Assembly: GCF_009602705.1 (NCBI RefSeq)
Contig: NZ_VSWH01000001.1
Coordinates: forward strand, 558,001-622,000
Direction: 5' to 3'
Origin: Chryseobacterium vaccae
GTDB lineage: Bacteria > Bacteroidota > Bacteroidia > Flavobacteriales > Weeksellaceae
DNA: 64,000 bases
A program made the position numbers and the translations under genes. Shown here one piece after another: positions 23,083 to 30,913 of this stretch. The notes below the pieces were generated by a model. It was not told the origin of the DNA. It was given only the letters and a program-made list of their open reading frames with translations, and did not search any database. Each line of letters begins with the position of its first letter. Position 1 is the stretch's first letter.

Positions 23083-23763
23083 CTATGTTAATAAACAAAT
23101 ATTATTAGAATTTTTTATTGATAAAAATTCTTCCTTTGGTAAAAATGGCTGTTTTCGTTTGATTACGGCCATTATTCGGTGTACTAATTTATTTCTTACG
23201 GCATTGAGAACACTCATTTTATTTTTACCCTGCTCTACTTTTCTCTGGTAATACGTTAATAGCTTAAACACATACACATCGTGGCTCTTAGCTTCCCGCA
23301 ATTGATTTTCCAGTGCTGTCTTCTGCAATAGCAGTGTATCACGGGATTTGGCCAGTACATTCATTTGTTGTATAACTTCCTCTGGTTCTTCATAAGGCAT
23401 TATTTTATCATGATAACGCACAGCATATTCTGCAATTTTTCTGGCATCTTTCCTATCGTCTTTTCCTCTTAAATCACTTGCTGCTTTTTTGATTTTCAAA
23501 GGATATTCCACCCAAAGTAGATATTCTGATTTTGAACAGACTTTTTCCAATGGACGGTTATAAATCCCCGTATTTTCGCAACAAATCAAAAGATCTTCTT
23601 TTGTTATTTTTAGCATTTTTAAAAGATCTTTTAAAAAAATAGTAATTCCTTTCTCTGTATTGGGGATAATCAGCTCACATTGAACTTTGTATTCAAAATT
23701 CATTACTGTACAATCTAGTTTTAATTTGGAAATATCGATGCCAATAACATACTTTTGTCTCAT
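23083..23763 (-). pseudogene. IS110 family transposase, internally deleted
   Basis: The start MRQKYVIGIDISK at 23763 is the usual IS110 start. The N-terminal DEDD domain is present: GIDISK, CCENTGIY, and KDDRKDARKIA. After LENQLREAKSHD (about residue 160) the sequence jumps to YYQRKVEQGKNKMSVLNAVR, which in full-length relatives is the extreme C-terminus. The 226-residue frame is open, but the central part and the Transposase_20 domain with the catalytic serine are missing, a loss of roughly 100-150 residues compared with normal members of 320-350. It is most likely a dead deletion derivative. It lies between the leu operon terminator and an unrelated operon. Confidence 0.85.
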
Positions 23764-23784
23764 AACTTTTGAGTTTATCATTCA

Positions 23785-25655: not shown

Positions 25656-26123
25656 TTATTTTTCGATAATTGTTTTCAGATCTGCAGGGGAGTAGTATTT
25701 GTTTTTTAATACTTTATGATCTGCCTGTCTGTAAACATTGAATTTTTCTCCAGACTTTTCATAAAAAGATTCTACTTCCTTTGCTTTATAAAACTCAACA
25801 GTTTCCTGTGCCTGTTCTTCATTGTCACAAGCTTTCGACATATTGGAACGCTGAACTTCGTTGAATAACTCTACAAATTTACTGCCAAGTCCGAATTCAA
25901 GCACAGCTCCGCTTAAAACATACTGAAGATCACACAGTGCATCAGCAATTTCTACAATATTATTGTCGGCAATGGCCTGTTTTAATTCATTAAGTTCTTC
26001 CTGTAAAAGTTCTACTCTAAGGTTGCATCTTTCGGGAGAAGGGATTTGCGGAGTATCTAAAATAGGGGCTTTGAAAGTAGTATGGAATTCTGCTACTTGG
26101 TTCAGACTGTCAATTTTATCCAT
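25656..26123 (-). CDS. MazG-like nucleotide pyrophosphohydrolase-domain protein
   Basis: A 155-residue all-helical protein. The metal-binding pattern of MazG-like enzymes is visible: LLQEELNELKQAI around residue 40 and EIADALCDLQYVL around residue 60 (ExxE followed by ExxxD). Such proteins hydrolyse nucleoside triphosphates to monophosphates for pool cleaning. It is the first gene of the operon leading through the thioredoxin-like protein to DUF4230. The link between these functions is not evident. Confidence 0.8.
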   Translation of the reverse strand: MDKIDSLNQVAEFHTTFKAPILDTPQIPSPERCNLRVELLQEELNELKQAIADNNIVEIADALCDLQYVLSGAVLEFGLGSKFVELFNEVQRSNMSKACDNEEQAQETVEFYKAKEVESFYEKSGEKFNVYRQADHKVLKNKYYSPADLKTIIEK

Positions 26124-26384: not shown

Positions 26385-26420
26385 TAAAAAATCCACAACC
26401 TAAAATTGTGGACCTTGTTT
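26385..26420. terminator. Intrinsic terminator after the TNT/partner operon
   Basis: Arms TCCACAA (26392-26398) and TTGTGGA (26406-26412) form a perfect stem; the minus strand continues with TTTTTTATTG. It lies about 38 bases past the stop of the 139-residue gene. Confidence 0.8.
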
Positions 26421-26449: not shown

Positions 26450-26869
26450 TTATTTAAGTTCTTTATATTTCCATATACCTGAAATCTGTAATGCCGTTAG
26501 TCCCGGCTGCTTTTCTCCATAACTAAATATACCGATATACTTTGCAGGGCAGGTTTTACAGCTGGTTCCGAAATATAAAGTGGGCAAATTATTGACAGTC
26601 AATTCCCCGAAATGAATCATTCCTTTTGAGGTTTCAGCAGCCATCCCGTTTTGAAGCAATTCGTTTTTAGATAGTATTTTATCTTCGTGGTACACCTGAA
26701 AAATAGGAAATCCGGATTGATAAGGAATGATTTCAACCATATTTTCATGGCTGCAGTCACAGCAGATGAATTTTGTAATGGCTGAAGGGTTTATTTCACC
26801 ATTGGTGAAGATGCTTTTTTCAATGAGGGCTTTTTTGCTGATGCTTATTTTTGTTGATATTGAATACAT
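26450..26869 (-). CDS. Small Cys-rich hypothetical protein, possible antidote to the TNT-like lipoprotein
   Basis: A 139-residue protein without a signal peptide, so cytoplasmic. It has two cysteine clusters, ICCDC near residue 36 and SCKTCPAK near residue 105, that could bind zinc, and a conserved-looking end GIFSYGEKQPGLTALQISG. I do not recognise a family. It begins 10 bases after the stop of the TNT-like gene and shares its terminator, so they are co-transcribed. Toxin genes of this class are usually followed by a cytosolic immunity gene; calling this one is inference from position only. Confidence 0.7.
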   Translation of the reverse strand: MYSISTKISISKKALIEKSIFTNGEINPSAITKFICCDCSHENMVEIIPYQSGFPIFQVYHEDKILSKNELLQNGMAAETSKGMIHFGELTVNNLPTLYFGTSCKTCPAKYIGIFSYGEKQPGLTALQISGIWKYKELK

Positions 26870-26879
26870 TTGAATGGTT

Positions 26880-27584
26880 TTATTGCTGAATAACTGTACC
26901 TGCTAAGTTATTATATTTTCCGCTTGGACTTTTCTTAATCGTGATTTTTACATATCCTTCAGCTGCCAGCTTATTCCACGTTTTCTGATAACCTGTAGCT
27001 GGGTCAATCGGGATCTTCCACATGGTCTGCTTACCATTTCCTGCCTGATTAAACCATGGAATAATATCTGCCGTCTGAGACTGGAAAGGTAATGAATTCA
27101 GGACATCTATTTCATAATAAAAATCATATTTGTTTTCAGGCTGGTTAAGGGCTCTCTGTGTAAAGGTGTAAGTGTATCCGTTAATGATAGGACTTGTGAA
27201 GCTTCCTCCCAGAGTAGGGTTTCCGGTTCCGTCATAGTTTCCGATGGCCCCACTGTATCGGTCGAATTTTTGTCCTGCCAGAATGGGAACATCATCCACA
27301 ATATTATAGCCGCCGTTTGCAGGAGGCCATCCTCCGTTTAGGTTATTACCCGTGAAAAAGTATTCCATTTCAGTCCATCTGCCTTTTTTGTAGAGGTCAA
27401 AGACATAATTTCTGGCTTCAGATCCTACTGTTCCGGTGGGATCATAGGTGACTGCAAGTTCATCCGCATTTTTATAGAATACATGCGTAACGTTTCCTGT
27501 GTTTTCATCTTCTCTGTCTGAGCTGCAGGCCATTGAAAAAAAGGCCATTGAGAAAAATAAAATGTACTTAAATAAATGTTTCAT
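26880..27584 (-). CDS. Lipoprotein with TNT-like (NAD glycohydrolase) domain
   Basis: A 234-residue protein with lipoprotein signal MKHLFKYILFFSMAFFSMAC (Cys20). Residues about 84-215 follow the order of the tuberculosis necrotizing toxin (TNT) domain: GGWPPANGGY, ILAGQKFDRYSG (Arg109), a GxP region, FTQRAL (Arg144), YYEIDVL, IIPWFNQAGNGKQ (Gln186) and LAAEGYVKI. In TNT enzymes the corresponding arginines and the final glutamine are active-site residues that hydrolyse NAD+. As a lipoprotein it would sit in the envelope or on the surface. It is followed at 10 bases by a cytoplasmic gene that may protect the producer. Assignment is by motif order, not by alignment. Confidence 0.72.
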   Translation of the reverse strand: MKHLFKYILFFSMAFFSMACSSDREDENTGNVTHVFYKNADELAVTYDPTGTVGSEARNYVFDLYKKGRWTEMEYFFTGNNLNGGWPPANGGYNIVDDVPILAGQKFDRYSGAIGNYDGTGNPTLGGSFTSPIINGYTYTFTQRALNQPENKYDFYYEIDVLNSLPFQSQTADIIPWFNQAGNGKQTMWKIPIDPATGYQKTWNKLAAEGYVKITIKKSPSGKYNNLAGTVIQQ

Positions 27585-27930: not shown

Positions 27931-27956
27931 AAAGACCGCTCAATAATTGAACGGTC
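27931..27956 (-). terminator. Intrinsic terminator of the metalloprotease gene
   Basis: Arms GACCG (27934-27938) and CGGTC (27952-27956), extended by CTCAAT/ATTGAA, with TTTTTTATAT following on the minus strand. Confidence 0.85.
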
Positions 27957-27982: not shown

Positions 27983-30913
27983 TTAATTCTTGATGAATCT
28001 CTTGGCGCTTTCTCCAATCTGGATCATATAAGCTCCTTTAATAAGTCCGCTTACATTTATGCTGCCTCTTTCTAGTTTTCCTGAATTGATTAGTTTTCCA
28101 CCCATATCGAAGATTTTATAATCTTCAGATTCCGTATTTGAAATATATAATACATCTTTTACAGGATTTGGATATAGTCTGAATCCGGTGATTAAATCTT
28201 TGGTATCAGAAAGCTCTCCTCTGCCTGAAGAAACGATATTAAGGGTATAGTCTTCAACCTGGCCGTATGTGAATGCTTCACAAGAAGAAGTTGGGATAGA
28301 GCTGTACTTCATCATTACTCTCATTCTTGTAGAACCAATGGCTGCGGTTGCAGGAATGGTAATGCTTCCCGTTACAGGAGTTGTTGTAGAGCCTGCCTTA
28401 GACCATGCTAATTCTCCGCTGTCGGTAAAGTCACCGTCTCCGTTATAATCAATATAAACGGCATAAGCTTCGCTGTATTTAGTTGAGGTCCATACAGGGG
28501 TTATAGAGATGGTATAAGCGCTTCCTCTGGTAACATTGGTAGAAACAGATGTGAAGTTTTCATAACCTGCAGTTCCTGTTGAGGTATTGTTGATGGTTCC
28601 GAATTTTACATTTCCAATTCTTTCATCTGCGGTATTGCTGGCTGATGAAGAACAGTAGGTTACCGTACCTCCTGAAAGTGTTGTTACACTTACGGTATTG
28701 CTGGAAGGGGAAATATTTCCGGCGGCATCTTTAGCTTTTATACTGAAGCTGTAAGTTGTTGCAGGGCTTAAACCTGTTACGGTATAAGTGGTAGACGCTG
28801 TATTTCCGATCACTGAACCGTTCATGTATACATCATATCCTGTTACGGCTACATTATCAGTAGCTCCGCTCCATGAAAGATTGGTGCTTGTGGCTGTTGT
28901 TCCTGAAGCTGCAAGAGTAGGGGCTGTAGGTGCAACAGTATCTGTTCCGCCTGAGCCTGCATTTACAGTAATGTTGGCATTGTTCACATCAAAGAAAATG
29001 TGATTTGAACCTTTTACCATCAATCTTCCGCTTGTTGTAGATGAATTAGGGATGGTTACAGCCTGAGATCCGTCGTTTGGCGTTCCTGCCAGAAGAGTAG
29101 TCCAGGTGTTTCCGTTATCTGTAGACCAAAGAATATCTACGTTAGCGGCATTTACTCCGTTGGAGGTAGTCCCTGCTTCGTTCCATGTTACCGTTTGAGA
29201 GCTTCCGCCTGCGTAAGTAGTGGCTGAGTTTTGCGAAGTGATACTGAAAGGTCCCGCTGTTCCGTTAACAGTAATTACTGCATCGTCTGAATTATTTCCT
29301 GCACCGCCGGCTCTGTTATCCCGAACGGTAAATCTGAAATTGAGTGCTCTGGCTACATTAGATAAAGCTTCTACTGTGATTTCTGACCCCGCGGTAGTGG
29401 TTGCTCCGGTAAGAATGGAGGCCATTCTAGGGAAATATCTTACAGGGGAAGTAGTAGGTGCCCATGATCTGAAAGTAGGTCCGGATGCTTTTGTGGCACT
29501 TGCTGCTGAGCTGGCTCCTGTTTGTGAGGAGGAAGCATTATCCATCTGCTCCCAGATATAGGTTAGTGAATCTCCGTTCGCATCTGTTCCTGTTCCGGTC
29601 AGCATGAAAGGAGTTCCTTTCGGAATTGTATAATCAAGGCCGGCGTTTGCTGTTGGAATTGAATTTCCTGTAGAAGTGCTTACCGGGCATGTTTTAGCTT
29701 TAATATTATTGGTAATCTGCTGAATACTTACCGCATGGAAAAATGCATCTGAGTGTGGCTGTACATCCTGTGCTGTAATTCCTGCGTAGCCCATAATGGT
29801 TGATCCGGAACCTGGTTCCATATTTACACCTGTTCCTTCATTTCCGTGAGAGAAGGTATGATTTCCTCCAAACTGGTGCCCCATTTCGTGAGCTACATAA
29901 TCAATGTCAAAATTATCTCCTGAAGGAATAGCATCTGCCGGAGAGGTGTAGCCACTACCTTTTGACCCGTTGGTACAGATACAGCCGATACAGCCTGCAT
30001 TTCCGCCTCCTCCGGAAGCTCCGAACAGGTGTCCTATATCATAATTGGCTTCACCAATTACTGAAGTCAGGGTGCTTTGAAGCTGGGAATTCCAGCTGCT
30101 CATTCCTGAAGCTGCAGAATAAGGATCTGTAGAAGCGTTGGTATAGATAACGGCATCGTTATTGGCAATAAGAACCATTCTGGCGGCAAAGTCTTTTTCG
30201 AAAACACCGTTTACGCGGGTCATGGTTGTGTTCATGGCGGCCAGCGCATTTGCTTTAGTTCCTCCGAAATAACTAGTGTATTCTCCTGTGCATGATAATG
30301 CAAGCCTGAATGTTCTTAATTTGGCATCATCTGCATTAGGTCTTGCAGCGAGGCTGGCATTGGAAGCACCTTTCTGGGCTACATCAATCACCGTACATTC
30401 GAATTTGTTGAGGTTGTCTTTTTTATCAGACTTTTTGTAAACCACATACGTAGAAAGATCTTTGGTATACGGTTCAATAAAAACGGCAGATTTGTCGCCG
30501 TAAATTTCCATGGAAGACAGGCCTAGCGGGGAAACACTGAAGTAAACGGTAGAGTTGGGGTCGCTTAAACCTTCTCCAACGTAAGATTTGATGTCGGGAT
30601 ATTTTGCAGCAAGCTGAGGGTCAAAATTGGATTGCTCTCTTACTTTAAAATTTTCCATCTTTCCTTCAGAATTAGGGAAAGAAATAATGATTTCTGATTT
30701 TTCTCCCTGAGCAAGCCTTTTAGGTGCTTTGGCCAGTACGTTTTTCAATCCGTTAATGTCAAGGCTGTAAACTTTAGGGTTGCTGATGTTGGTTTTGTTT
30801 TCAAAAACCTCTGAAGATGCTTTTTTAGAGCCTTCAGTCCATAGACGATCTGTCTGCGCGAATGAGATACCTGTAATAAGCAGCATCCCAATCATGGAGA
30901 ATTGTTTTTTCAT
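27983..30913 (-). CDS. Secreted reprolysin-like zinc metalloprotease, T9SS substrate
   Basis: A 976-residue multidomain exoprotein. A signal peptide (MKKQFSMIGMLLITGISFAQ) and propeptide are followed by a metalloprotease domain of metzincin type: HEMGHQFGGNHTF near residue 341 gives the HExxHxxGxxH zinc site, and MGYAGIT downstream is the Met-turn. Next come a Ig-like/PKD-type stretch, a fibronectin type III domain (near residues 665-755, APTAPTLAASGTTATSTNLS) and a GEVED domain (YIDYNGDGDFTDSGE near 840). The last 75 residues, with GFRLYPNPVKDVLYI and ending AKRFIKN, form a T9SS sorting domain. It probably degrades extracellular protein. Confidence 0.94.
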   Translation of the reverse strand: MKKQFSMIGMLLITGISFAQTDRLWTEGSKKASSEVFENKTNISNPKVYSLDINGLKNVLAKAPKRLAQGEKSEIIISFPNSEGKMENFKVREQSNFDPQLAAKYPDIKSYVGEGLSDPNSTVYFSVSPLGLSSMEIYGDKSAVFIEPYTKDLSTYVVYKKSDKKDNLNKFECTVIDVAQKGASNASLAARPNADDAKLRTFRLALSCTGEYTSYFGGTKANALAAMNTTMTRVNGVFEKDFAARMVLIANNDAVIYTNASTDPYSAASGMSSWNSQLQSTLTSVIGEANYDIGHLFGASGGGGNAGCIGCICTNGSKGSGYTSPADAIPSGDNFDIDYVAHEMGHQFGGNHTFSHGNEGTGVNMEPGSGSTIMGYAGITAQDVQPHSDAFFHAVSIQQITNNIKAKTCPVSTSTGNSIPTANAGLDYTIPKGTPFMLTGTGTDANGDSLTYIWEQMDNASSSQTGASSAASATKASGPTFRSWAPTTSPVRYFPRMASILTGATTTAGSEITVEALSNVARALNFRFTVRDNRAGGAGNNSDDAVITVNGTAGPFSITSQNSATTYAGGSSQTVTWNEAGTTSNGVNAANVDILWSTDNGNTWTTLLAGTPNDGSQAVTIPNSSTTSGRLMVKGSNHIFFDVNNANITVNAGSGGTDTVAPTAPTLAASGTTATSTNLSWSGATDNVAVTGYDVYMNGSVIGNTASTTYTVTGLSPATTYSFSIKAKDAAGNISPSSNTVSVTTLSGGTVTYCSSSASNTADERIGNVKFGTINNTSTGTAGYENFTSVSTNVTRGSAYTISITPVWTSTKYSEAYAVYIDYNGDGDFTDSGELAWSKAGSTTTPVTGSITIPATAAIGSTRMRVMMKYSSIPTSSCEAFTYGQVEDYTLNIVSSGRGELSDTKDLITGFRLYPNPVKDVLYISNTESEDYKIFDMGGKLINSGKLERGSINVSGLIKGAYMIQIGESAKRFIKN

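Follow-up and report, generated by a model that had tools for sequence, protein, structure and literature searches.

The antidote of the toxin domain CpnT-TNT, a nicotinamide adenine dinucleotide (NAD+) glycohydrolase (NADase), is the protein IFT (Rv3902c), which is encoded by the adjacent gene and is reported to interact directly with the toxin (PMC8092274). A fungal enzyme of the same type, AfNADase, is described as dimeric and Ca-regulated with the catalytic residues D128-R129, F137, R148 and Q194, and the same report states that A. fumigatus and N. crassa have no IFT homologue (PMC7955114). The exported streptococcal NADase is described as requiring co-expression of its own inhibitor IFS for production (PMC4777570). 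Here, we analysed a 64-kb stretch of DNA from Chryseobacterium vaccae (the window; all coordinates are positions within it), which belongs to a 5.1-Mb assembly of two contigs. Two genes on its minus strand encode a 234-residue lipoprotein with a TNT module and a 139-residue partner without visible signal peptide. The pair is probably a toxin-immunity operon consisting of a surface TNT-family NAD+ glycohydrolase and a cytoplasmic antidote. No description of such a TNT lipoprotein and antidote was found in the open-licence literature, which is weak evidence of absence.

The lipoprotein gene (26880..27584, minus strand) is the first of the pair and the gene of the partner, the candidate immunity protein, is the second (26450..26869, minus strand). 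Ten bases (26870..26879) lie between the lipoprotein stop and the partner start, the layout given in a preliminary description of this DNA. That description had also read a TNT motif order into the first protein, and all five motifs (WPPANGG, FDRYSG, FTQRAL, PWFNQAGNGKQ and GYVKI) are present. PF14021 (TNT) is the only Pfam match of weight, with an E value of 1.4e-5 and 25.9 bits at a gathering cut-off of 27 (PF14021.12). A database protein identical to the window lipoprotein, P0001, carries a precomputed PF14021.13 annotation, and PF14021 was found above the cut-off in 61 of 148 genomes of the genus, the window's own genome not being one of them. The structural model of the lipoprotein is confident (predicted local distance difference test score, pLDDT, 89.0) and its top structural matches are TNT-type NADases, namely fungal enzymes and CpnT-TNT. 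The predicted TNT match and TNT-like fold were thus recovered, the former with a near-threshold score.

The mature part of the lipoprotein is a TNT module. Its catalytic or palm domain comprises residues 86-234 (26883..27329, minus strand) and is preceded by an N-terminal helical part corresponding to the thumb region (27330..27503, minus strand), for which the model has helices between residues 40 and 85. The thumb region is supported by two alignments of large effectors described below, which match the profile over positions 54-224 and 37-222. Searches returned 150 homologues of the lipoprotein and 206 of the partner, 120 of each being listed. By motif, the counterparts of the AfNADase residues are D108-R109 for D128-R129 (27258..27263), F129 for F137 (27198..27200), R144 for R148 (27153..27155) and Q186 for Q194 (27027..27029), all on the minus strand and all present in 120 of the 120 listed lipoprotein homologues. 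These include R109 and Q186, the expected active-site Arg and Gln.

The lipoprotein signal peptide with Cys20 (27525..27584, minus strand) is recognisable by its sequence pattern, consistent with the proposed export and lipid anchoring, and the pattern recurs in 101 of the 120 listed homologues. This count was obtained with a relaxed rule, since a stricter one, which accepted 57 of 103, was too strict; the proteins missed by the relaxed rule include some with other start codons (P0012, P0074, P0088), the fragment P0103 and TNT proteins of a non-lipoprotein type. Directly behind Cys20 lies the stretch SSDREDE (27504..27524, minus strand), which resembles the surface-export signals of Bacteroidetes lipoproteins described as SDDFE in Flavobacterium johnsoniae and SDDDD in Bacteroides fragilis (PMC5080379). 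At least two acidic residues at positions +3 to +7 were found in 99 of the 101 listed homologues with a recognised Cys. Given the conservation of this acidic stretch, display of the lipoprotein on the outer surface is likely.

The partner lies outside known families, as supposed earlier. It has no Pfam or PADLOC match and a single, meaningless NCBIfam match (E 0.08). Sequence searches against the PDB with phmmer and with a profile returned nothing usable, and no 4qlp chain appeared among their matches at E ≤ 10. Its model is very confident and has no PDB fold match at E ≤ 0.001; IFT and IFS are not among the fold matches listed. Two Cys clusters, C36/C37/C39 and C104/C107, were confirmed, and the four residues of the pairs C36-x-x-C39 (26753..26764, minus strand) and C104-x-x-C107 (26549..26560, minus strand) are invariant among 108 aligned homologues. 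The second pair is followed by a C-terminal beta-hairpin (residues 110-137; 26459..26542, minus strand) that is modelled as two strands, 110-121 and 124-137, and contains the motif FSYGEKQPG.

Both genes are strictly inherited together. Of the 148 genus genomes, 101 encode the lipoprotein and exactly the same 101 encode the partner, while the other 47 have neither. The 102 copies of each form one-to-one pairs on a shared strand, the two matches being separated by 11-18 bases in all 102 pairs, stop codon included, and the lipoprotein is single-copy in 100 of the 101 carriers, two of which were missed by the PF14021 search. The locus of Chryseobacterium sp. ISL-6 (L128) has the gene order of the window. 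Outside this count stand two additional fragments of a disrupted partner in G063 and seven weak matches to the lipoprotein query, none of which adjoins a window-type partner; five of them are TNT regions of effectors of about 1250 residues and two are weak partial matches (G118, G133). Thus, independent occurrence of either gene, which would have spoken against the preliminary description, was not observed in the genus. With 150 and 206 homologues and 102 of 102 copies paired, the pairing is more than chance.

In support of a joint function, all 12 empty sites checked among the 47 pair-less genomes keep the flanking metalloprotease and MazG genes and lack both genes of the pair. That the two are mere neighbours with unrelated functions in a conserved segment is therefore highly improbable, even though the flanking genes are conserved in order as well; the complete pairing and the recurrence of the pair in another order, described below, argue in the same direction. 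In a tree of flanking-gene pieces from 41 loci, which included the 30 pair-carrying loci closest to the window (L030 was dropped as it had no flanking matches), parsimony requires 4 changes, a rough count because the root was placed at the midpoint and support values were unexamined. Within the pair, the partner is the faster-evolving member (14 usable loci).

The same distribution bears on the purpose of the enzyme. The lipoprotein might be a household ecto-NADase that salvages outside NAD+, in which case the partner would serve as a safety lock against enzyme in the cytosol and competition would play no part. This explanation shares the antidote with the toxin-immunity operon and differs in purpose, and we regard it as a serious, though less probable, alternative. 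It would account for the occurrence in 101 of the 148 genomes, with a single copy in all but one of the 101, and for the fact that 29 of the 30 loci closest to the window have the same flanking genes beside the pair. The divergence of the lipoprotein (0.153) is close to that of the flanks (0.137 and 0.148) in the 14 of these 30 loci with enough flank for comparison, unlike that of a typical arms-race toxin. Moreover, the nearest solved relatives are described as surface NADases (PMC7955114), and a lock would still be needed by a salvage enzyme, as illustrated by the account of the exported streptococcal NADase and IFS (PMC4777570). In contrast, the absence of the pair from 47 genomes does not suit a household function, nor does the fact that other TNT proteins of Bacteroidota, those with neighbours of the A5 type introduced below, are large and toxin-like.

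The search was then widened beyond the genus. In a sample of 246 genomes of the order, the partner profile matched 10, all of the genus, and the TNT profile 12, the two additional ones being G164 and G319. In samples of the phylum, the TNT profile matched 8 of 395 genomes, and PF14021 matched 9 of 345 at 10 places, three of which are the genus lipoprotein; the other seven lie in G389, G514, G462, G164 (C25 and C5), G221 and G263. Going by their names, some lipoprotein homologues come from Pedobacter and Elizabethkingia, and Elizabethkingia also contributes a partner homologue; a contig scan of named genomes with the latter as query gave one locus only. G389, a genome from another order of Bacteroidota that is related at class level only, encodes a 252-residue TNT protein with an apparently plain export signal and no lipid anchor. 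Three bases behind this gene lies a 139-residue partner homologue with both Cys pairs (E 1.2e-55), indicating that the partner goes with the TNT module and not with the lipid anchor. Hence, of the earlier notion of a Cys-rich protein tied to a lipoprotein NADase, the pairing with TNT holds and the link to the anchor does not.

The idea that the partner is an antidote gained support from its C-terminal element, which by sequence appears to recur in a second family that is met in immunity contexts. Five genomes (G070, G105, G107, G116 and G132; loci L083-L087) encode effectors of about 1250 residues behind an AAA ATPase gene, in which TNT lies some two hundred residues before the end and is followed by a variable C-terminal part. 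Pfam, run on two of the five, found PG_binding_1 in both (L083 and L086). The variable part of the L083 effector is Ntox46, and the gene directly behind it encodes a Tsi6 homologue, the expected antidote of Ntox46. A further protein of 112-115 residues, which we call the A5 family, is present in 5 of these 5 loci and carries LFSYGExQxGRYxLFxEG near its end. Partner and A5 align over 30 C-terminal columns with 43% identity (hhalign probability 94.7, P 5.6e-8), as compared to an hhalign probability of 0.2% for the control alignment of partner and toxin. In all five effector genomes, the best match of the partner profile other than the orthologue is an A5-family gene, in four of them at the TNT locus (E 0.0047-0.285) and in G105 in a fusion elsewhere (E 0.376). 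Conversely, the A5 profile matches the partner C-terminus in 20 genomes with E values of 1.6e-4 to 9.9e-4. The N-terminal half of A5, of the FDGDE type, does not align with the partner, and A5 lacks its Cys pairs. Thus, the preliminary emphasis on the Cys clusters is upheld by four invariant residues, but the feature common to other immunity-like proteins is the hairpin and not the Cys pairs.

From its surroundings, A5 looks like an immunity family. L112, L113 and L118 encode fusions of a Tsi6-like half with an A5 half, the latter with 65-75% identity. The Tsi6-like half has 75-79% identity with the product of the gene that follows the L085 effector, and this product has 36% identity with the Tsi6 homologue that Pfam recognises in L083; in the two fusions submitted to Pfam, Tsi6 was not recognised. 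Since the effectors of L085 and L083 share 73% identity over the full length, the former too should consist of TNT and Ntox46, and the fused antidote, as judged from these similarities, should mirror a TNT-Ntox46 double toxin. In G514, an unrelated toxin ends exactly with TNT and is followed after 13 bases by a gene for a 326-residue protein. Residues 1-110 of this remote relative match A5 (E 8.1e-9, in a search of the three open reading frames of that stretch). The window's own genome contains an A5 domain as well, in a 208-residue protein of an array beside a SUKH gene.

Further observations were made on such loci. The array in the window's own genome (G000:C1:1409819-1418001; L090, L070) consists of thirteen small open reading frames on one strand and has the look of a polyimmunity array, with one SUKH-1 gene (PF09346, E 1.3e-16), the 208-residue A5 fusion and, by eye, apparent paralogues of 221-276 residues; no TNT match was present within the 15 kb read. 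Immunity-type domains occur in several fusions in L112, L113, L118 and L120, including one of A5 with an apparent third family, which also exists as separate genes in other loci (both by eye). Open frames of 838-876 residues in L114 (3098-5587, G080) and in G055, G028 and G011 match the A5 profile without its C-terminal end (about positions 16-101, E 2.8e-5 to 6.9e-4).

A role of the partner not as an inhibitor but as a cofactor or chaperone, for instance one that binds metal and helps the lipoprotein to fold or to be exported, would fit the four invariant Cys in two CxxC pairs. It would also fit weak, non-significant matches to proteins some of which are known zinc binders. However, the hairpin also occurs in proteins without Cys pairs, which are members of immunity arrays and form fusions with Tsi6-like domains. 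Furthermore, Sec substrates such as the lipoprotein are expected to leave the cytosol unfolded. We therefore consider a helper function unlikely.

Several observations weigh against a toxin-immunity operon and against the kinship of partner and A5. The PF14021 score of the window lipoprotein stays slightly below the gathering cut-off, and the similarity of the partner to A5 is limited to 30 columns. Matches of the partner profile to A5 genes are individually weak, most of them being non-significant alone, and the 326-residue protein of G514 is not detected by this profile. Distances of lipoprotein and partner correlate beyond the flank distances (partial r 0.61, p 0.002; 14 usable of 30 loci), yet such a correlation of adjacent genes can stem from the shared ancestry of the segment, and linkage could contribute. 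Some TNT genes have other company. G164 (at G164:C25) and G319 carry a different gene behind TNT without similarity to A5 or the partner, the TNT gene of G462 has no such neighbour, the TNT locus of G221 is cut beside an insertion sequence and the TNT of G118 (L091) is broken. Finally, a survey of effector loci in the 148 genomes, in which coordinates were compared by hand, yielded 23 loci, 5 with and 18 without TNT. Of the 18 TNT-free effectors, 7 have a full-length A5 gene nearby, 2 a fragment and 9 none, and all 8 effectors with a long middle region have an A5 gene, whether they contain TNT or not.

The statement that A5 is a TNT antidote by virtue of adjacency was consequently dropped as too strong, full-length A5 being found at 5 of 5 TNT loci and at 7 of 18 TNT-free ones (one-sided Fisher about 0.024, calculated by hand with kinship ignored). 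A hidden TNT was not detected at E ≤ 10 in the three related TNT-free effectors of G136, G024 and G058, the piece from G058 being incomplete. The A5 genes at TNT-free effectors may be leftovers of past TNT effectors, a situation resembling that of immunity arrays, or may serve another domain.

The genes next to the TNT toxins of L088, L089 and L091 encode proteins of 231-235 residues or a pair of 185-187 residues, which are candidates for further antidote families. A search of the genomes G118, G164 and G319 with the partner profile gave nothing beyond the ordinary partner of G118. PF14021 also matches proteins of 225 and 219 residues in G263 and G164:C5 (L155 3857-4534 and L156 4102-4761), which have similar surroundings and in which no DRY or QR motif, export signal or such neighbour was seen; perhaps they represent the TNT fold put to another use.

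If the pair is indeed a toxin-immunity operon, the following sequence of events can be envisaged. The lipoprotein would be exported, lipidated and, judged by the acidic stretch behind its Cys, displayed on the outer surface. As an active NADase, it could act in neighbouring cells, reaching them through contact or in vesicles, or on extracellular NAD+. The partner would stay in the cytosol, bind the TNT domain and block the NAD+ cleft, thereby keeping enzyme that is retained in the cytosol or returns to it from draining the cell's own NAD+. Our guess is that the SYGExQPG hairpin would be the TNT-binding element, with the four Cys holding a structural zinc.

The arrangement of the locus is compatible with joint expression. 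A terminator-like stem with a T tail follows the pair (26388..26416, minus strand; 13 pairs, 3 of them G-C; a consensus match only), in agreement with the terminator proposed for both genes, and a second one, closing the preceding gene, lies before the lipoprotein gene (27934..27956, minus strand). The terminator scan of the minus strand listed no stem between the two genes. With stems on both sides and none in between, the pair looks like one transcription unit. The Bacteroidetes promoter pattern occurs at chance level within the window. The neighbours, labelled from their sequence, are a metalloprotease-like gene upstream (27983..30913, 976 residues) and a MazG-like gene downstream (25656..26123, 155 residues). 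Further away, directly after a leuB-like gene, a 232-residue open reading frame (23083..23781, minus strand) resembles the first portion of an IS110-type transposase.

The most fitting classification of the pair is that of a TNT-family NADase whose partner represents a new candidate immunity family. A wider reading, which we advance tentatively and with some doubt, is that Bacteroidota have a TNT-antidote superfamily of their own, unrelated to IFT and of an unsolved fold, in which a TNT-binding hairpin SxGExQxG sits on interchangeable scaffolds, together with a lipoprotein NADase acting between bacteria from the surface or from vesicles. These scaffolds would be a metal-held Cys4 one for surface lipoproteins, a second one for effectors of injection systems, the Tsi6-like fusions and the large one of G514. 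The pair would provide the first antidote family for TNT toxins of Bacteroidota, with an apparently unsolved fold, and an example of a TNT NADase that is kept at the cell surface by a lipid anchor. Already the pair itself hints at a wider antidote type for the TNT toxin family.

The window pair was compared with several known systems. The closest solved folds are the fungal surface TNT-type NADases (AfNADase, 6yge; N. crassa, 8r17), which have the same catalytic residues as the lipoprotein. Weaker matches of the same broad fold, with 7-11% identity, are Tse6, Tne2 and Rhs1-CT, which were solved with their immunity proteins Tsi6, Tni2 and RhsI1. These toxins use other delivery routes. An exported NADase with its own inhibitor, as envisaged for the window, is described for streptococci. 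The streptococcal enzyme comes from a Gram-positive organism and is not known to be a lipoprotein. The contact-dependent inhibition protein CdiA of E. coli FCH1 is described as having a C-terminal DUF4237/PF14021 domain and a cdiI immunity gene (PMC4927057) and in this resembles the window pair with its TNT module and candidate immunity gene. EAT5 of an extracellular contractile injection system is a NADase-like toxin with an antidote gene as well, but it is RES-like, and the neighbour gene of unknown nature that is reported to have rescued E. coli lies upstream (PMC8213781). CpnT-TNT and IFT (4qlp) share with the window pair the TNT fold and a directly adjacent gene for the antidote or candidate antidote. 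TNT forms the C-terminal domain of CpnT, a type VII substrate, whereas the mature window protein as a whole is a small lipoprotein. As the searches made revealed no sequence similarity between the partner and IFT, the partner would work like IFT without being counted as an IFT.
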